A stretch of 51,269 nucleotides of DNA. It comes from Pirellulales bacterium. GTDB lineage: Bacteria > Planctomycetota > Planctomycetia > Pirellulales > Thermoguttaceae. The position numbers and the translations under genes are program-made. Below the pieces are notes generated by a model. The model saw only the letters and a program-made list of their open reading frames with translations. It was not told the origin of the DNA and did no database searches. Shown piece by piece: positions 1 to 17,676 of this stretch. The stretch is taken from assembly GCA_016931075.1 (NCBI GenBank), contig JAFGFF010000052.1:1-51269 (forward strand). Direction: 5' to 3'. Positions within the stretch are counted from its first letter, which is position 1. Each line of letters opens with the position of its first letter.

Positions 1-63
1 CGGCCCTTCGGGTGCTTCGCACAAAAGGTGACTGGCACCTTTTCCGCAAGCCGTGAACGGTTA
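1..63. repeat. Palindromic intergenic repeat, copy A (partial at window edge)
   Basis: Bases 1-47 match 21884-21930 at 46 of 47 positions. The core at 23-43 has arms AAAAGGTG and CACCTTTT; an A at base 31, where the other copy has C, breaks the otherwise perfect palindrome. Bases 51-63 (CCGTGAACGGTTA) are the reverse complement of 21836-21848. The element ends about 30 bases beyond the stop of the lipoprotein gene and may extend left of the window. It has no coding potential and resembles a REP/MITE-like dispersed repeat; no transposase is visible. Confidence 0.8.
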
Positions 64-92
64 CATTGTGCCGAGTCCTTTCCCGTGAATCG

Positions 93-2561: not shown

Positions 2562-2616
2562 TTTTGTTCCGCCTCCTTGGGATACTCCGGCCTGTTCCAG
2601 ACGCTCCGGCCGTGAG

Positions 2617-4686
2617 CTACTTTCTGGTTTTATTCTTGTTCTTTCGCCGCCGCATTCCCATGCGCCCCATCAACATCTGGATCGCGCCGCCGACGGAAAG
2701 CAACGGCTCGATTCTTTCGAGTTCCGGATGATCCGGATTGACGTCCGCCAGCATGTCGCCCCAACGCTTGGCCGCTTCGAGGTTGTCTTGCTGAATAAAC
2801 AAACGGATGTAGGCAAGGCACAGGGCCTCGTATTCCGTCTGGTGAAACCGTTTCCGCTGCCGCAACGAGGCGAGGTATTCTCCCGCTCGTTCGTAGTCCC
2901 CTTCCATCGTGGCAAGGTACGCCACGCCAATCCGACCGAAGAAATAGTCCGGCCAGCGCTGGTGGATCTCGCGAATGAGTTGGATTGCTTCGTCATCTCG
3001 CCTTTGCAAACGCCACGACATGGCCAGGTTGTGAAGCAGGCTGGGTTTTTCTCCGTCCACCTCGATGCACTTTCGCAGAAGACGTTCCGCGCGGGGGCCT
3101 TCGTTTTGGCGGATTGCTTCCGAGGCCTCGATGGCCCATTCCTCCACTTCCTCGGAGTATCCGGGCCCTGTCGGTTCGCAGGTGATCTCGAAGCCCAGCA
3201 CCTCGATCTCGTTCCACTCGCCACGGATCCACATGCGTTGTGGTTCGGAAGACAAGGCTCCCTTCTCGCTCAGGTAGCTGGCCGCCTCCATTCGCAGGGC
3301 GTCCGTGCCGCGCTGCGACAAGCAGAACTCCCTAATCACTTCGGTCAGTTCGGGGGTGTCCAAGCACCGCGCGAAGTTCCAGGCAAACTCCCGGCCGACT
3401 TCGCCTCCCCGGTCCAATAGGGCCGCGACGAGGTTGACGATTCCCGGATGCTCTCGAACGTATCGCCGCGCCGCCTCTGCGGCGGACTTCTCATCAGCTA
3501 TCTTTGCTATCTTCTCGACGTCTTTGGCCAACCGCATGGCGGCATTCTCCCCGAGCCAGTGACCGAGGTCGTAGTACCAAGGTCCGTGGCGTTCGGCCGG
3601 CGGTCGCTTCGCGTCTTCGAGGTTTTCCACTGTCAAGCTAAGCCCCGGCCAGATTTTCAACGCATCCCGCCACAACTGTTGTGCCTTTCTTGGATGGCCC
3701 AGTCTGGCGTTGGCGACGGCGGCCAGATGGTGCAGGACCGCCGCCTCGGGTATCTTCTTCTTCATGAAGCCGGCGCGTTTCGCCTCGGCGAACGTGTCGA
3801 GCACTCCCTGGTCGTCGCCGAAGAAACTGAGTGTCTCCGCCTTCTTGGCCCATGTGTCCGGCTCCTCCGCGCGCAAGCGGCGAAGTCGTTCGCACATCTG
3901 CTGCGCCTCGTCTTTCTGACCGTCGAACAGAAGAAATCGCGCCAGATTGCCGAGGGCATGTGGATTGTCGGGATCTCGCTGAATGACGCGTTGGGCCATC
4001 GCAATCGCCTCGCCGGGCCGCCCGCACATGAAATGCGCGAGACTCATGTTGTTCATCACGGGGATGAAATCCGGCGCGCGCGACAAGAGACGCTGCCCTG
4101 TTGAAATGAGTTTTTCGTATTCTCCCAAGCCGAGATAGCCCGTGGCTTCCTCGTGCATGGCTGCCAATTCGATCCGATCCTCCGCCGAGAACGGCATTTC
4201 CTCGGTCATTTCGGCGAAATCTGCTTCCAATTGAGCAACGCTGATTCGCACCTCGGCCGCCATGGGGTCGTTCGGCCATCGCCGCAAGTATTCACGGAAA
4301 GCCTGAATGGCGCTCGCGGGCCGCATCGCTTGCATACAGGCTCCGGCCAGCATCAATTGGATTGCCGGATCATTCGGCCATTCCTTCGACAACCGGCGGC
4401 AGATCTCGTAGAAAGCTTCATGATCACCCTGCTGAAAATGGACTTCCGCCAGCATTTGCAGGACGTCCGGTCGCCCCGGGTGAATATGATCGCACTCCTC
4501 CAGTACTTCCCTTGCGTCTGCCCATCGCTTGCGCATCATGTAGGATTCCGCCTCGCTTAGCAGTTCGCGCCATCGTCGCTGCCGCGTCCGCCGTGGTGCA
4601 ATGGCCGCTTCGCCCTTCGCATGAGAATTCGTGTGAACTCGTCTTTTCTGACGATTGTTGCGCCGGGTTTTGTTTTTCTTCGACAT
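2617..4686 (-). CDS. Tetratricopeptide-repeat protein with basic N-terminus
   Basis: A 689-residue protein starting with a very basic segment (MSKKNKTRRNNRQKRR) and ending in another basic tail (RRRKNKNKTRK). Between them are repeated helical hairpins of TPR type, for example around residues 45-150 (ADAREVLEECDHIHPGRPD, AIQAFREYLRRWPNDP) and again near residues 180-270 and 545-650. No catalytic domain is recognisable. An in-frame GTG lies 36 bases upstream, but the ATG at 4686 has GGGAGG seven bases ahead and a promoter candidate places transcription start near 4724, so the ATG is preferred. TPRs usually bind proteins; the basic ends may contact nucleic acid, which is inference. Confidence 0.8.
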   Translation of the reverse strand: MSKKNKTRRNNRQKRRVHTNSHAKGEAAIAPRRTRQRRWRELLSEAESYMMRKRWADAREVLEECDHIHPGRPDVLQMLAEVHFQQGDHEAFYEICRRLSKEWPNDPAIQLMLAGACMQAMRPASAIQAFREYLRRWPNDPMAAEVRISVAQLEADFAEMTEEMPFSAEDRIELAAMHEEATGYLGLGEYEKLISTGQRLLSRAPDFIPVMNNMSLAHFMCGRPGEAIAMAQRVIQRDPDNPHALGNLARFLLFDGQKDEAQQMCERLRRLRAEEPDTWAKKAETLSFFGDDQGVLDTFAEAKRAGFMKKKIPEAAVLHHLAAVANARLGHPRKAQQLWRDALKIWPGLSLTVENLEDAKRPPAERHGPWYYDLGHWLGENAAMRLAKDVEKIAKIADEKSAAEAARRYVREHPGIVNLVAALLDRGGEVGREFAWNFARCLDTPELTEVIREFCLSQRGTDALRMEAASYLSEKGALSSEPQRMWIRGEWNEIEVLGFEITCEPTGPGYSEEVEEWAIEASEAIRQNEGPRAERLLRKCIEVDGEKPSLLHNLAMSWRLQRRDDEAIQLIREIHQRWPDYFFGRIGVAYLATMEGDYERAGEYLASLRQRKRFHQTEYEALCLAYIRLFIQQDNLEAAKRWGDMLADVNPDHPELERIEPLLSVGGAIQMLMGRMGMRRRKNKNKTRK

Positions 4687-4730
4687 CTGCTTGCCTCCCT
4701 GCAATTCAAATGGAGCCACCACGATGCTTG

Positions 4731-4759
4731 ATTATGTGCCAGATCGCGTCTTGAGTCGA
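4731..4759 (-). promoter_or_regulatory. Candidate sigma-70-type promoter of the TPR gene
   Basis: On the minus strand TCGACT (4754-4759) and CATAAT (4731-4736) are separated by 17 bases, with 4/6 and 5/6 matches to consensus. The predicted start near 4724 leaves a leader of about 38 bases before the ATG at 4686. Confidence 0.5.
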
Positions 4760-4867
4760 GATCCCTTGCGGCAGGCCGCGATACCGAGTCGGCTTCTGAA
4801 AATACCCCCTAAGAATTGGTTGCCAAACGACTTCACGACATGGCTGATGGCTATCACCCCAGGCTTC

Positions 4868-4897
4868 TTGACCACCCAGGCCGGGGCCTGATAAGAT
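4868..4897 (+). promoter_or_regulatory. Candidate promoter of the larA-like/yggS/DUF167 operon
   Basis: TTGACC (4868-4873) and TAAGAT (4892-4897) are 18 bases apart on the plus strand in the 271-base divergent spacer. The predicted leader before the ATG at 4958 is about 54 bases. No strong ribosome binding site precedes that ATG. Confidence 0.5.
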
Positions 4898-4957
4898 CGG
4901 CAAGAGGCACTTTGCCCCGACATTACCCAACTCGCCCGGCTTCAGCAACTTCCGGCC

Positions 4958-6211
4958 ATGTCTCATAGCCTTCGTTTTGGAACCGACTCGGTGATCTGCC
5001 TGGACGGCTGTTCGGCCGAGATGATCGCGCGGTGTGGGGTGCCGGACGTGGAGCCGATCGACGATCCGACCCGGGCGGTGGTCGAGGCACTTCGCCAGCC
5101 ATTGGATTACCCGCCGCTGGCCGATATGACCACGCCAGGCGACCGGGTGGTGGTCGCAGTGGGCGAAGGCGTCCCGGCAGGGGCAACGATCGTCTCGGGC
5201 GTGGTGCGGACACTCGTTGACGGGGGCGTGGCGCCGGACGGGATTGTCCTCTTGCGGACGGCCGCCGATGCCCAGGGCCTCGAAAACGACCCACGAAGTT
5301 GGCTGCCGGAACCGCTCGGCGAGGCAGTCGGTCTCGTGATCCACGACCCGACCGATCGCGACAGCCTGGCCTATCTGGCCACGACGGAACAAGGCCAACC
5401 GGTCTTTTTAAATCGGACGATTGTCGACGCCGATCTCGTCTTGCCGATCGGGTGTTTTCGACACGCCACGGCCGCCGGCTGCTACGGGATCCACGCGCCG
5501 GTTTATCCGACCTTCTCCGACCGGGCCACACGGCGCCGATTCTTTTCGCCCGAGACGCTCGACGCCCGAGGGCGACGCTGCCGGCGGCTGGTCAAGGAGG
5601 CCGACGAAGTCGGCTGGCTCCTGGGCATTGATTTTTCGATCCAAGTCATCCCGGGGCCCGGCGACCGGGTGTTCCACATCCTGGCCGGCCAGGCAACGTC
5701 GGTTCGACACCGGGCGATGGAATTGGACGTGGCCATATGGCACACGCACGCGCCCCGCCGGGCCGAACTCGTCGTGGCAGCCGTTGAAGGCAGCCGGAAC
5801 CAGCAGACCTGGCTGCAAGTGGGCAGGGCCTTGGCCACAGGCGCGGCTCTGGTCGAGCCGGGAGGCGCATTGGCCGTCTGCTGCGAGCTGGCCGATCCGC
5901 CAGGCATGGCCCTGCGAGGACTCAGCGCGGCCGCCTCCCGGAACGAAGCGATCGACGAACTCCACCGGCTGTGCCACGACGCGCCGGACAGCGTGCCCGA
6001 GGATGCCCTGCCGGCCATCCAACTGGCTGCCGCCCTGGATCACTGCCGAGTGCTCCTATTGAGCCAGTTGGACGACTCCACCGTTGAAGAACTCGACATC
6101 ACACCTGTGGCCCGTGTCGACGAGATCGTGCGGCTGGCCGGTCGCTGTCAATCCTACGTGCTGTTGGGCAATGCGTCTCATGTCACCGTGAGCGTGGATG
6201 AAGAAGAGTAG
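4958..6211 (+). CDS. LarA-family (DUF2088) protein, divergent lactate racemase homologue
   Basis: A 417-residue cytoplasmic protein. The N-terminal half follows the LarA/DUF2088 pattern: GDRVVVAVGEG near 61-71, a VIHDP element with His129, and DADLVLPIGCFRH ending at His169. Known LarA enzymes carry a nickel-pincer cofactor fixed to a lysine in a GG(R/K)K-type segment after this point. Here the corresponding stretch reads AAGCYGIHAPVYPTFSD and has no lysine, so true lactate racemase chemistry is doubtful. The C-terminal half is poorly matched by memory. It is followed after 12 bases by yggS, implying an operon. The family call is fairly sure; substrate and activity are not. Confidence 0.75.
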   Translation: MSHSLRFGTDSVICLDGCSAEMIARCGVPDVEPIDDPTRAVVEALRQPLDYPPLADMTTPGDRVVVAVGEGVPAGATIVSGVVRTLVDGGVAPDGIVLLRTAADAQGLENDPRSWLPEPLGEAVGLVIHDPTDRDSLAYLATTEQGQPVFLNRTIVDADLVLPIGCFRHATAAGCYGIHAPVYPTFSDRATRRRFFSPETLDARGRRCRRLVKEADEVGWLLGIDFSIQVIPGPGDRVFHILAGQATSVRHRAMELDVAIWHTHAPRRAELVVAAVEGSRNQQTWLQVGRALATGAALVEPGGALAVCCELADPPGMALRGLSAAASRNEAIDELHRLCHDAPDSVPEDALPAIQLAAALDHCRVLLLSQLDDSTVEELDITPVARVDEIVRLAGRCQSYVLLGNASHVTVSVDEEE

Positions 6212-6223
6212 CCGGGGCCAGGC

Positions 6224-6940
6224 ATGACCACGAGAGAATTGGACGCGATCATCGCCGAAAACGTCGCCCGAGTGCGCCGGCAAATGGCCGACGCGGCCGT
6301 CCGAGCGGGACGCGACGCCGGCGACGTCCGCCTCGTGGCCGTGACCAAGTACGTCGGTACGGAAGAGATTCGTTCGCTGGTCCGTGCCGGCTGCACGCTC
6401 CTGGGCGAGAACCGGCCTCAGCAACTCGCCGCCAAGGCCGAGGCCCTGCGTGACGAACCGATCCGTTGGCACATGATCGGACCGGTGCAGCGAAACAAGA
6501 TCCGCCGCACGCTCCCCCTGGTCGAGATGATCGAATCGGCCGACAGCCTCCGGATGATTGAAGCGGTCGATCGTGTTGCTGGAGAGCTTTCCCTGCAGGT
6601 TCCGATCCTTCTCGAGGTGAACGTCTCGGGCGATGCATCGAAACATGGATTTTCGCCGGACCTGGTGGTGGAAACGTTGAAGAAGGTGGTGAAATTCCCC
6701 CATGTCCAAATAAAAGGTCTGATGTGCATGGCAGCGTTCGATGGGGGGCTGGACGTGGCTCGACGAGATTTCAGACGGCTGCGCATGCTGCGCGAGGAAA
6801 TACGCAAAGATGGTTTTCTTCTGCCAAAAATGGATTTATTCGAGCTTTCGATGGGCATGAGTCACGATTTCAAAGTAGCCATCGAAGAAGGGGCCACGAT
6901 TGTCCGCATCGGCTCAGCGCTATTCGAGGGAATCGGATGA
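6224..6940 (+). CDS. yggS: YggS-family pyridoxal-phosphate homeostasis protein
   Basis: A 238-residue member of the YggS/PROSC family, a cytoplasmic single-domain TIM-barrel protein that binds PLP and keeps vitamin B6 and some amino-acid pools balanced. The PLP lysine is Lys42 in VAVTKYV. Other family marks are GEN near residue 65 (GENRPQQL, slightly unlike the usual GENRVQE), VNVSGDASKHGF, GLMCMAAF, LSMGMSHDF and RIGSALFEG at the end. Length is normal. It overlaps the DUF167 gene by ATGA, a common translational coupling, and this pairing with a YggU-like gene is known in many bacteria. Confidence 0.93.
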   Translation: MTTRELDAIIAENVARVRRQMADAAVRAGRDAGDVRLVAVTKYVGTEEIRSLVRAGCTLLGENRPQQLAAKAEALRDEPIRWHMIGPVQRNKIRRTLPLVEMIESADSLRMIEAVDRVAGELSLQVPILLEVNVSGDASKHGFSPDLVVETLKKVVKFPHVQIKGLMCMAAFDGGLDVARRDFRRLRMLREEIRKDGFLLPKMDLFELSMGMSHDFKVAIEEGATIVRIGSALFEGIG

Positions 6941-7260
6941 CGGTTAATTTGGAGCCACACCCCGAGGGAACTCTTCTGCCCATTCGTGCCCATGCCGGTG
7001 CCCGGCGCAATGAGATTTTGCCCCCCCAAGACGGGGTTCTCCGAGTCTCGGTGACCCAGGCACCCGAGGGGGGAAAGGCCAACAAGGTTATCGCGGTCCT
7101 CTTGGCCAAGGCTCTTGGATTGCGAAAATCTGAAATCATGCTACATTCAGGGGAGACAGCCCGCCGCAAGAAGTTCCTCGTGCGGGGTCTTTCTTGCGAG
7201 GAGTTGGGGGTGAAAATCAGTGAGTTGGTGTCGACGGACGGCACCGGATTGCATCACTAG
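6937..7260 (+). CDS. DUF167 (YggU-family) protein
   Basis: A 107-residue small protein. The segment RAHAGARRNEILPPQDGVLRVSVTQAPEGGKANKV contains the DUF167 signature, a basic strand followed by PxxGKAN, and then a helix and the SGETARRKKFLV strand. The molecular role of the family is unknown. The start is the ATG of the ATGA overlap with yggS; a longer in-frame reading from 6724 lies inside yggS and is not credible. Confidence 0.85.
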   Translation: MTVNLEPHPEGTLLPIRAHAGARRNEILPPQDGVLRVSVTQAPEGGKANKVIAVLLAKALGLRKSEIMLHSGETARRKKFLVRGLSCEELGVKISELVSTDGTGLHH

Positions 7261-7288
7261 GGTCTGTTCGAAGGGCAAGGAGCACACC

Positions 7289-7966
7289 ATGAGCCTGGCT
7301 GCCTGGTTGCTCGTGTTGTTGCCACTGGTAGCAATCGTTGCGGGCGCTTACGGGGTGTTGCGTTACGTGCGTCGTGGCACCCGGGCGCTTCATCGAGCGG
7401 CTTCACGCGGCGACATTCCACGGTTGACTCGTCTGTTGCTGGCCACGCCCGGGTCGGCCAACGCGGAAGACCTCGTCGGCTTGCGGCCGTTACAGTACGC
7501 CGCCTCCTGGGGCCAGCGAGAAGCAGCCGAACTGCTCTTGGAACACGGTGCCGACATTGACGGCGGAACAGGCTGGACGCCCCTGCACTATGCTTGTGCC
7601 GAGGGACGGTCCGAAATGGTCTCTTTTCTGTTGGAGCGCGGCGCCGACATCAACGCGCTATGTCAGGGCGACGGTTCGACGCCCTTGCACTCCGCCGTGG
7701 CCAAGAACCAGGTGGACGTGATTCGTTTGCTCCTGGAACACGGGGCATCGGTCGACGCCACCACGAAGTCGGGCTGGACGCCGTGCCATCTGGCCGCCGC
7801 CGAGGGCCACGTCGAAGCGGTTGACCTGTTAATCAAGGCAGGCGCCGATTGGAAGGCCACCAACGCGGGGAAACAAACGCCCTTGGAAGTCGCCCTAGGT
7901 AACGGTCATCCGGAAATCGTCGACCTGGTCCGCCGCCGCGAGACGGCATCGCCCCCCGTTGCCTAG
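7289..7966 (+). CDS. Ankyrin-repeat protein with N-terminal membrane anchor
   Basis: A 225-residue protein. Residues 3-25 form one hydrophobic segment (AAWLLVLLPLVAIVAGAYGV), so it is probably anchored with its repeats outside the lipid. About six ankyrin repeats follow, marked by LHRAASRGD, LQYAASWGQ, TPLHYACAEGR, TPLHSAVAKNQ, TPCHLAAAEGH and TPLEVALGNGH, each with the LLLEHGAD-type second helix. Ankyrin repeats mediate protein contacts; the partner is unknown. The start is chosen for the AAGGAG element about 8 bases upstream and the hydrophobic N-terminus. Confidence 0.85.
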   Translation: MSLAAWLLVLLPLVAIVAGAYGVLRYVRRGTRALHRAASRGDIPRLTRLLLATPGSANAEDLVGLRPLQYAASWGQREAAELLLEHGADIDGGTGWTPLHYACAEGRSEMVSFLLERGADINALCQGDGSTPLHSAVAKNQVDVIRLLLEHGASVDATTKSGWTPCHLAAAEGHVEAVDLLIKAGADWKATNAGKQTPLEVALGNGHPEIVDLVRRRETASPPVA

Positions 7967-8132
7967 CGGTCGACATATTCGGGACAACCGGCGCATCCCT
8001 CACCCTTCTCCGGTCCCGACTCTTTCTCCCGGTCTTTCTGGCGGAAGATGCCCCTTTCCTGCTTGGCTGGCAAACCTTGCGGGATATGCTTTCGGTGCGC
8101 AGACCCCTCAGGGTGTTTCCAGGTCTAGAGGT

Positions 8133-9332
8133 ATGAGCGAAGTCTCCGGCAAGATCCTTGTAGTCGATGACGATCCGGCCATTCGGGCACTCCTGGCCGA
8201 AGTACTGGGCAACGAGTACTCGGTGTGGACGGCCTCGGGCGGAGAAGAAGCGCTCGCGATTGCGCAGCAGGTTCGTCCCGAGTTGGTCCTTCTGGACCTG
8301 ATGATGCCGGAAATGGACGGATACGACACCTGTCGGCTGCTCCGGTCCGAGCCGGGCGGCAAAAGCATACACGTGATCGTCGTCTCCGCCGCCTCGTCCT
8401 ACGTCGAGCAGTTGCGGGCCTTGAAGTGCGGCGCCGATGACTATATTGTCAAGCCGTTTGACCCGTACGTCCTCCGATCACGTGTCCGACTCCATTTCCG
8501 GCTCCGCCAGGCCGAGGAGCAGGTCTCCGCGGTCCGCTCGGAGATCGAAGCCCAATCGTCTCAAGCGCGCCGCGCCATCGAAGATCAGCGACGCGAGCTG
8601 ATGGCCACCCAGGACGTGGCCGTCTTCGTCCTGGCCAAGGTGGCCGAGTGCCGCGACCACGAGACGGGCAACCACCTGATGCGGATGCGGGGCTACTCGC
8701 AACTCCTGGCCGAGGAGCTTCAACGAAACAGCCCCTACGCCGACCAGATCGACCGCCAGTTTCTCGACGACCTCTACCGGTCCAGCCCGTTGCACGACGT
8801 CGGCAAGGTGGGCATCAGCGATCAGATTCTTCTCAAGCCGGGTCGCCTGACGCCGGACGAGTTCGAGAAGATGAAGGAACACACGACGCTCGGCGCGCAG
8901 ATCCTTGACGAGGCCGTGTGGCAGCAACACGGCGGCGCGTTTCTGGCCATGGCGGCCACGATCGCGCGCCATCACCACGAGCGTTTCGACGGGACGGGCT
9001 ACCCCAGCGGCCTGGCGGGAACTGACATCCCGCTGCCCGCCCGGATCGTCGCCGTCGCCGACGTCTACGACGCCCTGACCTCGCAGCGTCCGTACAAACC
9101 GGCCTATTCACCGTTGGATTCAAAGGAAATGATCTTGATCGAGTCGGGCCGGCATTTCGACCCGGTCGTTGTCGATGCCTTTGAAGCCCGGTTCGACGAC
9201 ATCCTGGAAATCCAGCGCCAGTTCAACGACCAGATCACCGGCCAACGCCCCAACCTGCCGGCCGACCTCGCCAAGGCTCCGCCCCTGGAGGTTTCACCAC
9301 CCGGGCAGACGCAGCCGTCCCCGTCCTCCTGA
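8133..9332 (+). CDS. Response regulator with HD-GYP phosphodiesterase output domain
   Basis: A 399-residue two-domain signalling protein. Residues 6-122 are a receiver domain with acidic cluster VVDDD, phosphoacceptor Asp55 in LLDLMMPEMDG and Lys107 in IVKPFD. A coiled-coil-like linker (125-160) leads to an HD-GYP domain with HDVGK at 221-225, HHHERFDGTGYPSG near 280-293 and VADVYDALTSQRPYK. HD-GYP domains hydrolyse cyclic di-GMP, here presumably under phosphorylation control. The tail is Pro-rich. No kinase gene is adjacent. The ATG has GAGG only two bases ahead, too close for a good ribosome site, but the receiver fold begins right after it. Confidence 0.9.
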   Translation: MSEVSGKILVVDDDPAIRALLAEVLGNEYSVWTASGGEEALAIAQQVRPELVLLDLMMPEMDGYDTCRLLRSEPGGKSIHVIVVSAASSYVEQLRALKCGADDYIVKPFDPYVLRSRVRLHFRLRQAEEQVSAVRSEIEAQSSQARRAIEDQRRELMATQDVAVFVLAKVAECRDHETGNHLMRMRGYSQLLAEELQRNSPYADQIDRQFLDDLYRSSPLHDVGKVGISDQILLKPGRLTPDEFEKMKEHTTLGAQILDEAVWQQHGGAFLAMAATIARHHHERFDGTGYPSGLAGTDIPLPARIVAVADVYDALTSQRPYKPAYSPLDSKEMILIESGRHFDPVVVDAFEARFDDILEIQRQFNDQITGQRPNLPADLAKAPPLEVSPPGQTQPSPSS

Positions 9333-9491
9333 GGGGGCGGCAAGCTTGGGCCCACTTTGTGGAGCGGGGAACGCTCTACATTGGGGCAGTTGTTTCTCCG
9401 CGGGTTTCCAGCTCGTGCCCCGGTCCGCCAGGCTACAATAGAAGTGTTCGTCTTTTTTATCCAACCGGCCGTGCTGCCGGGGAGGCAACTT

Positions 9492-10457
9492 GTGAAGGCA
9501 AGATCCACGATCCTTGGAGCGTTTGTCCTCATCCTCCTGTTGGCAGCGCCTGCGGTGGCCCAGTTCAAGAAGGCCGAACCGGGTATCGTCAAGACAGGCC
9601 GGTCGCAAACGCAACGTTGGAAGGCCGGTCTGACCATCACGGCAGTCGGCGGTCCCTGCCGAGGCATCGTCGGCTACGTGCCCGTCCCCGTGGAGTGGCC
9701 CGAGCAGCAGGTCACCATCCTGAATGAGGACGTGTCGCCGGCAGCCAAAATCCGCTACCAGACCATGGCGGGCAACCCGAAGCTGATGGTGGTTCGCATT
9801 CCGAACCTCCCTTCCGGCGCGGAAGCCAAAGCTATCGTGACGTTCGAGATCACACGCCAAGAGATTCTACTGCCAGACAAGAGCGTCACCGACAAGCTGA
9901 AGCTACCTGAAAAAGACAAACTCCCCCCCGACATCCGCCGCTATCTGAATCCCAGCATCAAGATCGAGAGCCGCCACCCGAAGATTCGCAAGCTGGCCAA
10001 GGAAATCGGAGTGGATCGCGAAAAGGCGTGGGAACACGTCGAGGCAGTCTACGACTGGGTCCGCGAGAATGTCGAGTATAAGAATGGCCCCCTCAAGGGC
10101 GCGTTGGCGGCGTTGAAGGACAAGACGGGCGATTGCGAGGAACTCACCTCGCTGTTCATCGCGATCCTCCGCGCCCAGGACATCCCCGCGCGAACCGTCT
10201 GGGTGCCCGGTCACTGCTATCCCGAGTTCTATCTGGTCGACGAAGAGGGCAACGGCCACTGGTTCCCCTGCCAGGCCGCCGGTACGCGCTCTTTCGGGGG
10301 CATCCCCGAGCTGCGTCCCATTCTGCAGAAAGGGGACGACTTCCGTCTGCCCGACCAACGCAACACCCGCGTCCGCTACCTGCCCGAACGCATCAGCGGC
10401 CAGCGCTCCCAAGGCAAACCCCGCGTCCGCTGGATCCGCGAACAGGTCGCGCACTGA
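9492..10457 (+). CDS. Exported transglutaminase-like (TGc) domain protein
   Basis: A 321-residue protein starting at GTG with GGGAGG about 7 bases upstream. Residues 1-23 form a signal peptide ending LLLAAPAVAQ. After a beta-rich region comes a TGc-like core: KDKTGDCEELTSLF with Cys215, then GHCYPEFYL with His241. The position where transglutaminase-like proteases carry the third catalytic Asp reads HWFPCQAAG, giving Gln261 instead. Activity as a peptidase or crosslinker is therefore uncertain; the periplasmic location is supported by the signal peptide. A -10-like TACAAT lies at 9434-9439 without a good -35. It converges on the giant PEP-CTERM gene with only 22 bases between stops. Confidence 0.8.
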   Translation: MKARSTILGAFVLILLLAAPAVAQFKKAEPGIVKTGRSQTQRWKAGLTITAVGGPCRGIVGYVPVPVEWPEQQVTILNEDVSPAAKIRYQTMAGNPKLMVVRIPNLPSGAEAKAIVTFEITRQEILLPDKSVTDKLKLPEKDKLPPDIRRYLNPSIKIESRHPKIRKLAKEIGVDREKAWEHVEAVYDWVRENVEYKNGPLKGALAALKDKTGDCEELTSLFIAILRAQDIPARTVWVPGHCYPEFYLVDEEGNGHWFPCQAAGTRSFGGIPELRPILQKGDDFRLPDQRNTRVRYLPERISGQRSQGKPRVRWIREQVAH

Positions 10458-10479
10458 CCCTGCGAATCCCAAGGCCTTC

Positions 10480-13400
10480 TTAATGCAAAACGTGACGCCA
10501 CGGACGCCACAAGGTCACGAGCAGGCCGAGCAGCAGGATAAACATCGAAGGTTCGGGCACGGCGGGATTTCCCTCGGTGCCGACCAGCCAGTGGGCGGCC
10601 AGGATCGACGCATCCAGATCGTCAACGCGGCCGTCCCCGTTGAAATCGCCGTCGTCCCACTCCGCACCGGTCTGGAGCCAATGGGCTGCCAGGGCCGCGG
10701 CATCGGCCGCATCGACCTGACCATCGCTGTTGGCGTCTCCAGGTCCCGGGAGCATCACTCCGGCGCCAACCGCGAAGCAAGAAAATCCATCAACCCCGTC
10801 GGCCTGCAGCCAATGATGGGTCGCATCGAGCGCTGAAGTCACATCGACCCACATTCCGCCGGTGTGCTGATAAATCCGCAGGTCCGCGTCGAGAATACCC
10901 AGCGAGGCGGCTAGGGCGTCGTCGTAGCGGAAAATCAGGTCGGCCGTGTCGAACGCCAGCCCGGCCGACGGGGTGATGTCCCAGACGGTCAGAAGCGAAC
11001 CGCTGGGCACCGAAGGCGCCTCGGTTCGATCCGTGGCCAACAAAGCGATCGAAAGCGTTCCGCCCGTCGTCACGTTGGCCAGCTTGATCTGGGCGCTGTT
11101 GACCAGGTCAATTTCCAAGTCGCCGGCCGTTTCGCCCCAGTTGACCGTCACGTCTCCCGTCGCCACGGGCACGGCCGGCAAGACCAACTTGCCTTGTTCG
11201 GTGGCGTACCACCCGGCCTGCGAACCGTCGCCTTGTATGATGCCCAGGCTATCGCTTTGGACGATCGAGGTGAAATGGGAGAGATCCAGCGTCCGCTGAC
11301 TCCCGTAGCCTTGGGCCACCACGCAGCCGTTGTTGCTCAGCTCGCCGGTGAGTTGGACATTTCCCCAGCCGCGGAACATGGCCGAGGCTCCGGTGGCGCC
11401 CAACGAGCGGACGATCAGATCGAGTCCCAGCCCGGGCGAGGCCTCTTGGAGGATGCCCGTTGCGCTTGCGTTGCCGAAATAGTACCGTCCGGTGCTTCCA
11501 GCCGCCTCGGCCAGCCAGAGGTCGCCCGAGAGGGAATGCGTGCCGCCGAGTTGGAAGAAGTATCCCGTTCCCTCCTGGCCGACGATGGTGGTCCCGGAGG
11601 CCAAGTTGCCGTTATGCAAGACGAACATGCCCTGGGAGCCACTGGATAACGCGATGCCCAGCGCGGCAGTGGCCGTGAGTTGCCCACCTTCCTGAATATA
11701 CTGGTTGTCCGTCGAATAGCAGCCGACGCACAGGCTGTTTGCCGTGACCGTCGTGCCGATCTTCTGGACAAACTCGTTCTGGTCGCCCAAATAGCCGATG
11801 GTCAAATTCGTGCTGACGGTAAGCGAACCTCCATCAAGGGCCACCTGACCGGTTCCTTGCGACTGGTAACCGACGTAGAGCATCGTGGCGTTCAAGTCGC
11901 CCGCCGTCTGGCGCAACGTCCCTTGTTGGTCGTCGCCGACGAGGATTCGGTTGGTTGCGGTGAAGGAGCCTCCGTTTTTCGTGAAGGTTCCCTGGCCCTC
12001 GCCGCCGACGGTCAGCGTGTTGACCGTACATGTTTTGCCGGTCAGTTCGAGTTGCCCGACGGTCCCATTGGACGAACCGACGGCCAGTTGTTCGACCTCT
12101 AGGGTGCTGCCGGTCAGACTGAGCGTTCCGCCGTCGACGTTCAAGATTCCCTGTCCTGGCCCGTTGGCAATCGTGTCGGCGTGCAACGTGCCGCCACGAA
12201 GATTGTACGTTCCTTCGCCGGAGGCCAGGACGCCGAATCGCAATTCACCGCCGATGTCGGCCAGGCCTTGGGACTGGTTGATCGTTGCGATTCCTTCGAC
12301 GCCCAATCGCAGGTGTTGTGCAAGGAGACTGCCTCCCTGGAACTCGTACTTGCCCGTGCTGCCTGGTTCAACTGCCAGCGAAAACCAATGTTCGGCGGTG
12401 ATTTGGCTTTGAATCTGATTAAGAGACCCGTCGCCAGCGCGACCGATTTCAAAATCGTGAGCATGGATTTCGCCGTGTTGGAGTCGATAAAGGCCCATGG
12501 ATTCAGAGTTGCGGCCGAGGATGACCGTGGGATAGATTGGATCGGGATTTTCACCGTCCGGATCGATACGCGTGATCACGCCGCCGTATTGCATGACCTG
12601 ACCGAAGCTATCGTAACCCACGACGACCGTGGGCGAGGCACCGCCGATTTTGATCTTGGGCCCATCGCCGGCGACCGCTTCAAGGCTCAAATATCCATTG
12701 GAACCACTGCCGTTGCCGACATGAAGGTATTGCGCGCTAAGGCTTCCGCCGCGAAGTATCAGCGAGGCGCCGCTTCCCTCGCCGACGGACACGAGGCTTC
12801 CCACGGAGAGCGTCGATTGCGTGGCGATCATCGTCGCATTGTCGGTGATCCCCAATTTCATTTGATTGGCGACGGAAACCATCGCGGCGGAAAGGTTGAG
12901 TTGGGCCGCGCCCGTTTGGCCGCCGTCGCCGGCGCGGAACATGTTGTCCACATGCAGAACAGTGCTGTCGGCCATGGTGATCGTCCCGTTGGCGACGAGA
13001 TCATACCCGACGGTAACCTGCGAGGACGTGTCTTCGATGTTCAATGTCGCGTTCGGGGCGAGATCGACATTGTCATAGCTGAGGAACAAACCGCCGTGAT
13101 GCACCCGTAGCGAGCCGGTAATCGACGTCTCGCCCGTGACATCGCATCGACCGGCCACTTCGACGGCGCCGACGTTCTCCAGTGTGCCCGTGTTGAGTCG
13201 TCCCGCGGGCCCGATCTCGATCACGGACGAGGGATCGTTGTTGAACAGGTCGGTTCCCACATTCATCGTGCCCTCGGCGATGAGAATTCGACCCGCGTTG
13301 TTTTCCACGTCCTCCGTGACATTGAGTTCTCCGCCGTTGGCCACGTACAGCTCGGTGCTTGGGCAGAGTTTCAGTTGGCGGATCGTGTCGGTCAGGCCGT

Positions 13401-14337
13401 CGACGGCTGGAGTGTTGGTGGTCCCGACGATCCGAACGTAACGATCCAGGTCGGGCTCGCGGCCGTCCGACCAGTTGTCCGGGTCGGTCCAACTGCCGTT
13501 CTGATAGCCCATCCATTGGGCCAGCGAAAGATCGAAATTGTCGCCTCGCATCCACGGGTGTTGAAATCCGTCCACGTACGGCGCGCCCTCGCCGCCGGTC
13601 AGGGCCTGCGGCGTGTTGTTCAACGCGTAGGTGAACAAATCGTCGGTGTCGGTCCCCCCGATGCTGATGCCTTGGGCAAACGCCATGCAAAAATCGCCGG
13701 GCGGAACAACCGGATTGTAGATGGCCGGTTCGTAATGGTTCGAGGCCGCGCACCCAAACCGGATTTCACCGGTCGGAAACGCAAGTTCTTCGAGGATCCC
13801 GCCCGAGTAGCAATTGCCGAAGATGTACGCCTGTCGTCCCGTCTGGACGCTGCCGAGGTAGGTGGCGGTGGGGAAATCCTCGTCGGGAATACTGGCTCCC
13901 CAGCCCCAGAACTCCTCCTCGCTGTGGTCAGCCAGGTTGCCTTCATCGCCGCTGCCGTGCGACAGGGCCCAAAAGATGAACGTATCGCGCGGGCCTGCCG
14001 GCAGGGATTGCAGCGTGGTCGCCAGGTTGGCGGGAGTGGACGAGAGGACCGTGCTGGCCGGGTCGAGCGAGCTCCAGTCGGAATTGGCCCCGTCGGCCCG
14101 GTCCACCGCCGGATCGAGCCCATCGGCGGCCAGGACGTAAACGTTCTCGGGCAGGTAGTTCCACTCATGTACCAGGACGTTGTACATGGCCAAGGTGTCA
14201 TAGTAGAAACTTGTCATGTTTTCGGCCGCGTTCGGTCCGCTGGCGAAGAGGACCGCGTAGTGTTCGGCCCTGGCTTGGGACGCAAACCCGCTGACCACCA
14301 GCAGCCCGATGACCATCGCACGCAAGAAGTGTCTCAT
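10480..14337 (-). CDS. Giant secreted protein: caspase/legumain-like head, repetitive beta body, dockerin, PEP-CTERM
   Basis: A 1285-residue secreted protein. Residues 1-24 are a signal peptide ending SQARA. Residues 25-250 resemble a C13/caspase-clan peptidase, with candidate catalytic His127 in FWALSHGSGDE and Cys176 in YIFGNCYSGG. From about 270 (NGSWTDPDNWSDG) to 1100 the protein is a long series of Gly/Thr-rich strands of the type LTVGGEGQGTFTKNGGS, fitting a beta-helix. Near 1195-1250 are two dockerin-like calcium motifs (GDANSDGQVD, GDFNGDGRVD). The last 26 residues form a PEP-CTERM signal: VPEP, a hydrophobic stretch and a basic end. Exosortase-dependent sorting and surface display are inferred. 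GAGGGGGGG precedes the ATG. Activity and substrate are unproven. Confidence 0.82.
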   Translation of the reverse strand: MRHFLRAMVIGLLVVSGFASQARAEHYAVLFASGPNAAENMTSFYYDTLAMYNVLVHEWNYLPENVYVLAADGLDPAVDRADGANSDWSSLDPASTVLSSTPANLATTLQSLPAGPRDTFIFWALSHGSGDEGNLADHSEEEFWGWGASIPDEDFPTATYLGSVQTGRQAYIFGNCYSGGILEELAFPTGEIRFGCAASNHYEPAIYNPVVPPGDFCMAFAQGISIGGTDTDDLFTYALNNTPQALTGGEGAPYVDGFQHPWMRGDNFDLSLAQWMGYQNGSWTDPDNWSDGREPDLDRYVRIVGTTNTPAVDGLTDTIRQLKLCPSTELYVANGGELNVTEDVENNAGRILIAEGTMNVGTDLFNNDPSSVIEIGPAGRLNTGTLENVGAVEVAGRCDVTGETSITGSLRVHHGGLFLSYDNVDLAPNATLNIEDTSSQVTVGYDLVANGTITMADSTVLHVDNMFRAGDGGQTGAAQLNLSAAMVSVANQMKLGITDNATMIATQSTLSVGSLVSVGEGSGASLILRGGSLSAQYLHVGNGSGSNGYLSLEAVAGDGPKIKIGGASPTVVVGYDSFGQVMQYGGVITRIDPDGENPDPIYPTVILGRNSESMGLYRLQHGEIHAHDFEIGRAGDGSLNQIQSQITAEHWFSLAVEPGSTGKYEFQGGSLLAQHLRLGVEGIATINQSQGLADIGGELRFGVLASGEGTYNLRGGTLHADTIANGPGQGILNVDGGTLSLTGSTLEVEQLAVGSSNGTVGQLELTGKTCTVNTLTVGGEGQGTFTKNGGSFTATNRILVGDDQQGTLRQTAGDLNATMLYVGYQSQGTGQVALDGGSLTVSTNLTIGYLGDQNEFVQKIGTTVTANSLCVGCYSTDNQYIQEGGQLTATAALGIALSSGSQGMFVLHNGNLASGTTIVGQEGTGYFFQLGGTHSLSGDLWLAEAAGSTGRYYFGNASATGILQEASPGLGLDLIVRSLGATGASAMFRGWGNVQLTGELSNNGCVVAQGYGSQRTLDLSHFTSIVQSDSLGIIQGDGSQAGWYATEQGKLVLPAVPVATGDVTVNWGETAGDLEIDLVNSAQIKLANVTTGGTLSIALLATDRTEAPSVPSGSLLTVWDITPSAGLAFDTADLIFRYDDALAASLGILDADLRIYQHTGGMWVDVTSALDATHHWLQADGVDGFSCFAVGAGVMLPGPGDANSDGQVDAADAAALAAHWLQTGAEWDDGDFNGDGRVDDLDASILAAHWLVGTEGNPAVPEPSMFILLLGLLVTLWRPWRHVLH

Positions 14338-14412
14338 GAGTCCCCCCCTCGACGCAAGCAGGTCGAATCCTCAGTGCAAACTGCCTGTGGCTGGTCGGTG
14401 CCACTTCTCAAG

Positions 14413-14440
14413 AAGATAACCAAGATCACGGGTGAATCAA
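14413..14440 (-). promoter_or_regulatory. Weak candidate promoter of the giant PEP-CTERM gene
   Basis: TTGATT (14435-14440) and TATCTT (14413-14418) on the minus strand are 16 bases apart, with four consensus matches each. The match is moderate and could be chance. Confidence 0.3.
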
Positions 14441-14495
14441 TACACCACCAGAGGGGAAAGATGTGGGGGAATCACCCCTGACACATGAAGTCCGC

Positions 14496-15119
14496 CTACT
14501 CAACCGGATACAGCTTCGGCGACGGGATCTTCCGGCCGAAGACACCGCCGTATCGGGCGTGGAGGCCGGCGAAGTCGTGGCGGAGGAAGTCGAAGACAAC
14601 CGAGGGAGGTCCCAGGGCAAGCCAACGTCGGGCAAGTCGGAGAGCCACCTCGTCGTGGTCGCCGCCCGAGCCGTGGGCGAAGTAGCGGCCCCCGTGACGC
14701 CGGATGTCGCCGTTGAACCGAGGGCTGATGTGCCAGAGTTCGTGGGTGACCGTGGCCAGCTTGTCTTCGAGGCTTTGCTGGAAGAATCGGGGGAGATAGA
14801 AGTTGAGAATGTAGAGCATCTCTTGGCCCGACGCGTCGGTCAGCCGTTGCACGCCCCACCGGCGTCCGTGGCGAACCGTGTGCTCCTTGCCACCGGCAAA
14901 ACGCATCGGCGTCAGCGTGGCGTAGAGCCCGTGTCGCGTGTTCTTGCGGGCCTGACAGAAACCGATGGCCACACGCGCCAGATCGATATGCTCGAACGCA
15001 TCGAGCCGGTCGACCATGTCCTGGCAGAGCCGGCGCATGTGGAAAGAGAAGTCGAGCCCTCTGGAGGCGGCTTGGTTCGGTCCTTGAGACCGGGCATCGT
15101 CTGGCCAAGCAAGTGACAC
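14496..15119 (-). CDS. Putative zinc metallopeptidase (HELWH)
   Basis: A 207-residue protein of unclear family. It has a zincin motif HELWH at 126-130 (ATVTHELWHISPRF), which supplies two zinc ligands and the catalytic Glu; His142 and His149 in RRHGGRYFAHG may offer the third ligand. It resembles the putative phage metallopeptidase domain also seen in planctomycete genomes, but I recall this only loosely. There is no signal peptide. The GTG start has GGAG eight bases upstream. It lies 71 bases beyond rplQ on the same strand and might be read through from the alpha operon. Confidence 0.65.
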   Translation of the reverse strand: MSLAWPDDARSQGPNQAASRGLDFSFHMRRLCQDMVDRLDAFEHIDLARVAIGFCQARKNTRHGLYATLTPMRFAGGKEHTVRHGRRWGVQRLTDASGQEMLYILNFYLPRFFQQSLEDKLATVTHELWHISPRFNGDIRRHGGRYFAHGSGGDHDEVALRLARRWLALGPPSVVFDFLRHDFAGLHARYGGVFGRKIPSPKLYPVE

Positions 15120-15190
15120 GGTCCCGTCTCCATCACAGGTCCGTCACGATAGGGCCCCGTAGCCAAGGCGGTCAAGCGGCCGGTAGAGTC

Positions 15191-15820
15191 CTACTCGTCC
15201 GTTTTCTCGGCTTCATCCGCCGTGTCGGCGCCAGCGGCGGTTTCTTCCGTCTCAGGCTCGTCTTCGAAGACGGGCTTCGGCGCCGCGCGTCGTTTCCGGT
15301 CGTTCGTGCCGACGAACTCCAGAATGGCTTGGGCGCCCGCGTCTCCCAGCCGGGGGTTGGCCAGGCGGAGAATCCGGGTGTAACCTCCAGCCCGTTCAAC
15401 GAAACGTGGGGCAATCTCTTCGAAGAGGACGCGAACCGCCTCTTTGTCCCCCAACAGTTTCAGGGCCCGTCGCCGGGCGGCCACCACTGGGGCAATCGCC
15501 TGATTCCACTGCTGCCACCGCTCGCTCTGACGCCAGGCTCGCCAGGCTTCGGTCCCACGCTCGGCATCCGTTTCGAGTCCATCGGCCTTCTCTTGATGCT
15601 CGATGGAACGCCGTGCGATGGTCACGCACCGCTCGACCAAGGGGCGCACCTCTTTGGCTTTGTGCAGCGTGGTGACGATCCGGCCTTTGACCTTCGGCGC
15701 GTTCTTTTCGTCTTCGGCGTCGCGCTCGGTCAGGATCAGCGCGCTGGCCAGATTGCGGAGCAAGGCCCGTTGGTGGTTGGGATTACGGCCGAGCTTGCGG
15801 CCTTTGTTGCGGTGTCGCAT
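15191..15820 (-). CDS. rplQ: 50S ribosomal protein L17, enlarged
   Basis: L17 lines the rim of the peptide exit tunnel. The start MRHRNKGRKLGRNPNHQRALLRNL and the block IAPRFVERAGGYTRIL plus GDAGAQAILEFV are diagnostic. At 209 residues it is far longer than the usual 115-130: about 60 extra residues split the core (an acidic/basic loop near 33-48 and a Trp-rich helix near 88-112) and an acidic tail rich in Glu, Thr and Ala follows residue 180. It ends the alpha operon, 57 bases after rpoA. Confidence 0.95.
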   Translation of the reverse strand: MRHRNKGRKLGRNPNHQRALLRNLASALILTERDAEDEKNAPKVKGRIVTTLHKAKEVRPLVERCVTIARRSIEHQEKADGLETDAERGTEAWRAWRQSERWQQWNQAIAPVVAARRRALKLLGDKEAVRVLFEEIAPRFVERAGGYTRILRLANPRLGDAGAQAILEFVGTNDRKRRAAPKPVFEDEPETEETAAGADTADEAEKTDE

Positions 15821-15877
15821 GGTTCTTCAGGTCTTGTCGTCAAAAAAGGGGGTCCGGACGTCGCAGCGCGAGAGCGA

Positions 15878-16876
15878 CTAGATCGGGCTGGCGGGCGTCG
15901 GCGGGAGTCGCATTCCCAGACGCAGCCCGATTTCGGCCAAACGGCCGCGGATTTCGATCAGCGTTGTCTCACCGAAATTACGGACCTCCAGGAGTTGGTC
16001 CTCGGTATGCGTGACCAGGTCACGGACCGTGTTAATGTTCTCCGATTCGAGGCAATTGGTCGCTCGAACCGACAGGTTCAGTTCGGCCAGGCTCATCGAA
16101 AGCTTCGCTTCCGTGGCCAGGTCCAACGTGCTGCCGTTGGCCGAACGAGGCTCGGCGAAAACGCGCGGACCCAATTCGTGGTACTGGACGAACGGGTTGA
16201 GGTGCTTGCGGAGAATCTTGGCTCCTTCAACCAGCGCCATCTCCGGCGAGATGGAGCCGTCGGTCCAGATCTCCAACGTCAATTTGTCGTAGTTGGTCTT
16301 TTGCCCGACCCGCGTTTCTTCGACTTCGTAGCGAACCCGGACGACGGGGCTGAAGGCGGCGTCCAGCGGGATCGTGCCGATCTCTTGGGTCGCGGCGGCG
16401 TGTTCGGTCGCGGGGACGTAGCCTCGGCCCTTCTCGATCACCAGTTCGAGCACGAACGGAACGTCGTCGGTCAAGGTGGCGATCACATGGCCGGGATTGA
16501 TGACCTCGATGACACCGTCGGTAATCACATCGGCGCCCGTCACGGGGCCTTGCGTGTTCTTCTCGATGCGAGCAACCCGAGTCTGCTCCGACGAGTTTTT
16601 CACGACCAACGACTTGACGTTGAGCATGATGTCGGTCACGTCCTCGACCACGCCGGGCAGAGTCGTGAATTCGTGCTGGGCGCCTTGCAGCTTAACCTGC
16701 GTGACGGCGCTTCCCTCCAGGCTGGAGAGAAGGATTCGCCGCAGGCTGTTCCCGATCGTCACACCGAAGCCGCGCTCGAACGGTTCCGCGATGAACTTGC
16801 CGTAAGTCTTAGTCAGTGAGGCTCCGTCGCAGGAGACTTGACTGGGCAGCTCAAGTCCTCGCCATCGAATTCGCAT
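15878..16876 (-). CDS. rpoA: DNA-directed RNA polymerase subunit alpha
   Basis: A 332-residue alpha subunit, normal length. The N-terminal dimerisation domain carries [28 protein letters not shown] at residues 31-58, which nucleates polymerase assembly. The C-terminal domain (about 255-320) keeps the helix-hairpin-helix features [23 protein letters not shown] and [15 protein letters not shown] used for UP-element and activator contacts. It lies between rpsD and rplQ as in most bacteria. Confidence 0.97.
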
Positions 16877-16944
16877 GAGATTTCTCCGATCCTCATATTT
16901 TCGGTCAATGGCCTAACAGCCCGGCTGGTCGACTCCCGGCGCCG

Positions 16945-17571
16945 TTACTTCGAGCAGAGCTCGACGATTAACTGCGCCTGGACCGGAATCGAGACGTCGT
17001 CCGGTTCCGGCAGCCGCACGACGTGGCCCTCTGGTTTTTCCCCGTCGATCAGTGTCAGGAAGTCTGGCACCTGGCGATGGTTCTCCGCCAAATTGTTCTT
17101 CACTTGTTCCAGGCTCTTTGGACGTGCTTTCACGCAGATGACGTCACCCGAGCGGACCAGGTAGCTCGGGATGTCGACCCGTTGCCCGTTGACGGTAATA
17201 TGCCCGTGGGCAACGATCTGCCTGGCTTGTGCCCGCGACTGCCCGAAGCCGAGCCGGTGGACGACGTTGTCCAACCGCCGCTCCAACAGGCTCATCAACT
17301 CCTCGCCCGTATTTCCCTTGGCGCGTTCGGCCCGGCGGAAGTACTTGCGGAATTGGGTTTCCAACACGCCGTAGTACCGCTTGACCTTCTGCTTTTCGCG
17401 CAGATGCACGGCGTAGTCGGTCATTTTGCCGTGCCGGAACGTCTGCGATCCGGGCGGATTCTCACGGCGCTCGGCAGCGCACTTCGGTGAATCGCACCGC
17501 GCCCCTCTGAGAAAGAGCTTGGTCCTCTCGCGGCGACACAAGCGGCATTTGGGTCCGGTATTGCGAGCCAT
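16945..17571 (-). CDS. rpsD: 30S ribosomal protein S4, zinc-finger type
   Basis: S4 is a primary 16S rRNA-binding protein that starts assembly of the small subunit body. The 208-residue form begins MARNTGPKCRLCRRE; an upstream in-frame start would add a tail unlike the family. Cys9, Cys12, Cys26 and Cys31 form the zinc site of the Cys-containing S4 type. The S4 RNA-binding domain is visible at RLDNVVHRLGFGQSRAQARQIVAHGHITVNG. It sits 105 bases after rpsK. Confidence 0.96.
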   Translation of the reverse strand: MARNTGPKCRLCRRERTKLFLRGARCDSPKCAAERRENPPGSQTFRHGKMTDYAVHLREKQKVKRYYGVLETQFRKYFRRAERAKGNTGEELMSLLERRLDNVVHRLGFGQSRAQARQIVAHGHITVNGQRVDIPSYLVRSGDVICVKARPKSLEQVKNNLAENHRQVPDFLTLIDGEKPEGHVVRLPEPDDVSIPVQAQLIVELCSK

Positions 17572-17676
17572 GCTCGAATTCACTCCACGCGGGAACAGGG
17601 TTTGTATAACAACGGGATCTTGCGGAATCGGGCGGATGTCCAACGGGCAGCCGGGCCACGGCCTCCCGGCCAGGGC

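Follow-up and report, generated by a model that had tools for sequence, protein, structure and literature searches.

Described systems closest to the locus

Extracellular homologues of caspases have already been described in prokaryotes, together with planctomycete copies that lack the catalytic dyad (PMC3501461), and in 2019 freshwater planctomycetes were proposed to possess a complex, the planctosome, in which peptidases are assembled through cohesin and dockerin modules (PMC6461901). Cohesins and dockerins are also abundant in ANME-1 and ANME-2a archaea, where their function is unknown (PMC5244752). Here, we describe a gene located in a 51,269-nucleotide stretch of DNA from a Pirellulales bacterium (contig JAFGFF010000052.1 of assembly GCA_016931075.1), which was analysed at its full length and is referred to as the window. 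The gene occupies positions 10480..14337 on the minus strand and encodes a protein of 1285 residues that consists of a signal peptide, a head domain, a long repeat body, a dockerin, and a tail resembling the PEP-CTERM sorting signal. We favour, with moderate confidence, the reading that this protein is an exosortase-sorted, surface-held cysteine peptidase of clan CD, whose nearest relatives in fold are legumain (family C13) and the metacaspases.

Legumain (MEROPS C13, PF01650) employs a catalytic triad of Cys189, His148, and Asn42 and an S1 pocket formed by Arg44, His45, Ser216, and Asp231 (PMC9604545, PMC4357240). It is the best fold match of the head and shares with it the order His-Gly followed by Cys, and two of the 22 members of the head family match the corresponding Pfam model, Peptidase_C13 (best E-value, 4.4e-6). 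Unlike legumain, however, the window head has no match to PF01650 at E <=1, is fused to bacterial surface modules, and is followed by a body of beta repeats in place of the C-terminal death-domain-like prodomain, of which there is no sign; the S1-pocket residues were not placed with certainty. Metacaspases (MEROPS C14B) are close to the head in structure and provide its best profile matches in the PDB, with the His and Cys aligned, but the Pfam caspase-domain model, Peptidase_C14, has no match at E <=1 in the window head or in any of the 22 family members, and the window protein appears to be secreted and tethered to the surface.

The planctosome proposed for Nemodlikiaceae (PMC6461901) resembles the window protein in its planctomycete origin, its extracellular location, and the joining of dockerins to peptidases. 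In that system, however, the peptidases are metallopeptidases of the M12B and M14 families, accompanied by cohesin adaptors and a lamin-tail anchor, whereas the window protein combines a clan CD head with a PEP-CTERM tail, and a cohesin was not recognised. A putative cysteine-peptidase module on a dockerin protein is also found in RflaF_05439 of Ruminococcus flavefaciens (PMC3573020), but that module is NlpC/P60-like with a papain-like fold, and its host possesses a true cellulosome. The sorting tail follows the PEP-CTERM/exosortase (EpsH) scheme (PMC1569441), with a C-terminal PEP motif, a hydrophobic segment, and a basic end in a genome that encodes exosortases; nothing special sets it apart, except that its hidden Markov model score is below the threshold. 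The protein is an unusual but understandable combination of known parts and not a new kind of system. The initial annotation of this DNA, which read it as an extracellular system of a type new to planctomycetes, was overstated in this respect, as it is preceded both by the planctosome proposal and by the extracellular bacterial clan CD proteins cited above.

Predicted fold of the head domain

The head comprises residues 25 to ~275 (13513..14265, minus strand). Its structure was predicted by AlphaFold from a 22-sequence family alignment, with a predicted local distance difference test (pLDDT) score of 77 and a predicted template modelling (pTM) score of 0.82. The top match of this model in Foldseek was legumain (4n6o; E-value, 9.5e-9), and the best 50 matches consisted of 47 legumains or plant asparaginyl endopeptidases/ligases and three GPI transamidases. 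Structural alignment by VIA-align yielded Z scores of 18.2 for human legumain (211 residues) and 18.1 for Arabidopsis metacaspase-4 (~210 residues), followed by values of ~16-17.6 for a GPI transamidase subunit and plant peptide ligases. The model, the Foldseek matches, and the VIA-align matches agree in showing a caspase-like alpha/beta/alpha fold.

Profile searches point in the same direction. The head profile matched metacaspase-4 in the PDB with an E-value of 6.1e-6, with both catalytic residues aligned, and with an E-value of 9.2e-11 when a wider profile was used. A distant planctomycete relative of the head, lipoprotein-like in appearance, matched Peptidase_C13 at 1.2e-8, and a relative from Verrucomicrobia matched PF01650 at 8.7e-5, slightly short of the cut-off. 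When the window head was searched against the PDB as a single sequence, nothing better than an E-value of 0.14 was obtained; the impression of an unknown domain that such searches gave was resolved by the family alignment. On the basis of the predicted fold, the position of the candidate catalytic residues at core strands (described below), and the profile matches to metacaspase-4 and Peptidase_C13, the modelled head is assigned to clan CD, and it is very probably related to legumain and metacaspase as a putative cutting enzyme. The clan CD protease proposed in the initial annotation could have been contradicted by a model with a head fold unlike clan CD; comparison of the model with C13 and C14 peptidases instead supported it, as did the family profile and the conserved dyad. 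A firm placement in either C13 or C14B was considered and rejected because the structural scores of legumain and metacaspase are tied and the sequence matches are divided between the two families.

Conservation of the candidate catalytic residues

The two motifs that were originally singled out, SHGSG with His127 and GNCYSGG with Cys176, are present at these residues. By themselves they are weak evidence, as a His-Gly...Cys..Gly pattern at similar spacing occurs in ~2% of shuffled heads (386/20000). The evidence for a candidate dyad lies instead in its conservation, which was assessed in 28 sequences, i.e. the 22 aligned family heads and six sequences from other phyla, most of the aligned relatives sharing 24-39% identity with the window head. 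His127, Gly128, Cys176, Gly179, Gly180, Trp146, and Glu203 are invariant in all 28; within the 22-head alignment, the His and Cys are accompanied by invariant Gly and Trp positions and a Tyr-Glu pair.

The codon of His127 lies at 13957..13959 and that of Cys176 at 13810..13812 (both minus strand). His127 aligns with the His-Gly of both legumain and metacaspase, and Cys176 aligns with the metacaspase nucleophile and the legumain Cys position. In the AlphaFold model, each residue directly follows a strand (local residues 96-103, then His104; local residues 146-152, then Cys153), so that the His-Gly and Cys of the candidate dyad stand in clan CD order at the ends of core strands. Judging from this topology, the two side chains would face one cleft. 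Asn40 (14218..14220, minus strand), which is conserved in 27 of the 28 sequences and lies in the equivalent loop, may be the counterpart of Asn42 in the legumain triad; a profile-profile alignment of the head with plant legumain covered both catalytic positions and none of the S1-pocket residues, with Asn40 and Asn42 out of register by one residue.

Secretion signal, dockerin, and sorting tail

A predicted Sec-type signal peptide, read by eye, spans residues 1-24 (14266..14337, minus strand; MRHFLRAMVIGLLVVSGFASQARA/EH), and the homology of the head begins at residue 25. At the other end of the protein, PF00404 identifies a type I dockerin with two tandem Ca2+-binding loop-helix repeats at residues 1199-1247 (10597..10743, minus strand; 42 bits; E-value, 1.1e-10; cut-off, 22.9). 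The dockerin noted earlier is therefore confirmed by profile, but the two dockerin-like motifs counted at that time correspond to the paired calcium loops within a single Dockerin_1 domain. Residues 1259-1285 (10483..10563, minus strand; PEPSMFILLLGLLVTLWRPWRHVLH preceded by V) form a PEP-CTERM-like tail. Its assignment holds by eye (VPEP, hydrophobic stretch, and basic end) and by its spacing after the dockerin but not by the curated cut-off of PF07589, which matches residues 1259-1278 at 14.4 bits against 20.7. The genome contains two exosortases (E-values, 6.1e-57 and 1.9e-54). The secretion signal and the sorting tail that had been predicted are both supported.

The same ending is widespread in this organism. 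In the genome, PEP-CTERM tails number at least 142 and dockerin domains at least 99 (from 150 of 228 candidates scored), and in 47 other proteins, a dockerin is followed in frame by a PEP-CTERM tail after 9-14 residues, the corresponding distance in the window protein being 11 residues. Dockerin plus PEP-CTERM is thus a standard surface-protein ending here, and, since 47 other proteins share it, it tells nothing particular about the peptidase. Within the library searched, no paper was found that combines dockerin with PEP-CTERM, and a single one, a cystatin phylogeny, contains both legumain and planctomycetes.

Proposed function

If the favoured reading is correct, the protein would be exported by Sec via its signal peptide. 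One of the two exosortases would then recognise the PEP-CTERM tail and process it, so that the protein would remain on the outer surface or in the matrix. The dockerin, a calcium-binding module common to many C-termini in this genome, may serve as a folded calcium clamp, as a linker, or as the binder of an undetected partner. The body of ~900 residues, largely beta strands in the model, would hold the N-terminal head at a distance from the cell, and Cys176 as the nucleophile and His127 as the general base would cut extracellular peptides or surface proteins. Within this reading, the modules, the fold class, the conserved dyad, the exosortases, and the shared tail are computed results, and the peptidase activity, the substrate, the anchoring chemistry, and the role of the dockerin are inferred.

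Relation to cohesins

A different reading, which we regard as rather unlikely, makes the protein a subunit of a cohesin-dockerin peptidase complex of the planctosome type, in which the dockerin would plug the peptidase into a cohesin-bearing surface scaffold. Besides the published precedent in freshwater planctomycetes, it draws on relatives of the head. Cohesins are present in 13 of 101 genomes of the same family, and head, cohesin, and dockerin occur in single chains in a 3002-residue protein of a Methanosarcinales archaeon (L061; DTYY01000196.1, 4588-13593, plus strand) and in a metagenome-assembled genome (MAG) of Phycisphaerales (L081). In one of the 13, a rumen planctomycete (L024, G090:C159), a cohesin-fn3-dockerin gene (2-1087, plus strand) is followed directly, after ~400 bases, by a second plus-strand gene (1485-17639), which encodes a head, a beta-helix, and a dockerin in 5384 residues. 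The two products of this gene pair have similar acidic tails (LDVDLDIF and LGVDFDVF), possibly another sorting signal, and the archaeal protein also bears DUF7901, GEVED, and FG-GAP domains.

The window's genome, by contrast, offers little for such a scaffold. The assembly (491 contigs) is 94% complete, and PF00963, the Pfam cohesin model, has no match anywhere in it. A profile built from 17 cohesins of relatives gave one weak match in favour of a scaffold (E-value, 3.6e-5), located in a 1232-residue frame (L101, G000:C393, 3023-6721, minus strand) in which Pfam calls no cohesin. This protein also carries a hydrolase-like GHSGGG motif and, towards its end, a dockerin-like repeat that is unmatched by Pfam. 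The excess of dockerins over recognisable cohesins, of which there are none, does not correspond to a cellulosome-like stoichiometry, and the window protein has a PEP-CTERM anchor of its own, while its paralogue (described below) has no dockerin. The cohesin-binding module expected in the initial annotation is not borne out by these searches in this genome, and the tail in question is shared with 47 other proteins. The cohesin link is present in relatives and unproven for the window protein.

Evidence concerning activity

Several observations weigh against a functional, surface-sorted peptidase. Neither Pfam nor NCBIfam recognises the head of the window protein, the sorting tail scores below the PF07589 cut-off as described above, the branch of the window protein in the tree is long, and neither a substrate nor an operon partner is evident. 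In addition, residues near the dyad depart from the family consensus: Ser126 replaces an Asp found in 25 of 28 sequences, Asn175 a Gln found in 24, and Thr119 a His found in 25. Judged at the level of sequence, these departures could mean altered or lost activity. They favour an alternative in which the head retains a clan CD fold with little or no catalytic activity and serves for binding, so that the protein would be an adhesin or a component of the matrix. The same alternative is favoured by the many relatives whose heads form part of giant adhesin-like proteins containing Ig, cadherin, GEVED, CARDB, or fn3 modules and by a published survey in which the Cys-His dyad was retained in just 64% of the caspase homologues of planctomycetes (PMC3501461). 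However, the five motif residues (His127, Gly128, Cys176, Gly179, and Gly180) are invariant in all 28 heads, the window's included, and because such invariance would be unexpected without selection on catalysis, we consider a dead head unlikely. It is very unlikely that the head is a transpeptidase/ligase or autoprocessing domain, comparable to legumain acting as a ligase or to the GPI transamidase subunit, that joins or trims surface proteins and does not digest substrates: the GPI transamidase subunit and plant peptide ligases rank among the best structural matches and the family resides at the cell surface beside sorting signals, but hydrolase and ligase are not separable by fold alone, and the exosortases already supply a putative transpeptidase in the genome.

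Paralogue and distribution of the head family

A second copy of the head, with 38% identity, is present in the window's own genome. This paralogue shares its head and body with the window protein and carries a PEP-CTERM tail that scores above the cut-off, and no dockerin was matched in it. A head search of the 101 genomes of the same family gave matches in 12, and at the scale of the phylum, heads were matched at 1e-8 in 10 of 392 genomes. Scanning of genome contigs with the single head sequence found nothing; the scan with the family alignment found 22 loci. The family is expanded in two gut planctomycetes, G081 and G093, with nine and six copies, respectively (loci L006, L014-L020, L025, L026, L028, and L035-L040), at least one of which lies in a giant fn3-rich protein.

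Beyond the family, relatives of the head were found in ANME-2/Methanosarcinales archaea, one Spirochaetes, one Verrucomicrobia, and the Phycisphaerales MAG. In the tree, the window protein and its paralogue group with archaeal and Spirochaetes heads and not with those of gut planctomycetes (support 91/76, with long branches). Because these relatives come from MAGs, any one of them could reflect a binning error; in the archaea, three separate bins concur. It is conceivable, although improbable in our view, that the head represents an undescribed family of surface clan CD peptidases that was transferred between planctomycetes and methane-oxidising archaea and has repeatedly entered cohesin-dockerin peptidase complexes without a cellulosome.

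Gene structure, repeat body, and neighbouring genes

The open reading frame (ORF) starts with ATG, contains no internal stops, and ends with a stop codon at 10480-10482. The G+C contents of its first, second, and third codon positions (0.62, 0.48, and 0.76, respectively) fit a real gene in GC-rich DNA, and the ORF is thus regarded as genuine; homologues of its head are present in other genomes. The order of modules given earlier, from signal peptide through head, repeat body, and dockerin to PEP-CTERM-like tail, is found in this one ORF.

The repeat body extends from residue 276 to ~1190 (10768..13512, minus strand) and is likely a beta-solenoid stalk, as judged from a model based on its pairwise alignment to the paralogous sequence (31% identity). 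The model is all-beta, with pLDDT scores mostly of 70-92 over residues ~315-955 and low confidence beyond. Its Foldseek matches were weak (E-value of 0.15 or worse) and mostly to autotransporter passengers and S-layers. The beta-helix body described in the initial annotation agrees with the all-beta model but is not established by fold matching, and since no Foldseek E-value was better than 0.15, identification as a beta-helix by this route was set aside and is not claimed.

Preceding the peptidase gene are rpoA and rplQ (named by translation) and a small metallopeptidase-like ORF. The latter (14496-15119, minus strand), located between the rplQ-like and peptidase genes, matches a phage metallopeptidase model (E-value, 4.9e-6). 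On the other side, a gene for a transglutaminase-core protein (9357-10457, plus strand; E-value, 3.6e-17) is convergent with the peptidase gene. Promoter and terminator signals around the peptidase gene did not exceed the chance level, and the gene neighbourhood offers no functional hint.

Implications

The significance of this single gene is modest, as both its fold and its sorting parts are known. If the proposed reading is true, standard libraries miss a surface-tethered family of the legumain/metacaspase type that occurs in both bacteria and ANME-type archaea and has been combined repeatedly with dockerin or cohesin. Such a family would provide a testable entry to the roles of dockerins outside cellulosomes and to the manner in which planctomycetes handle extracellular protein.

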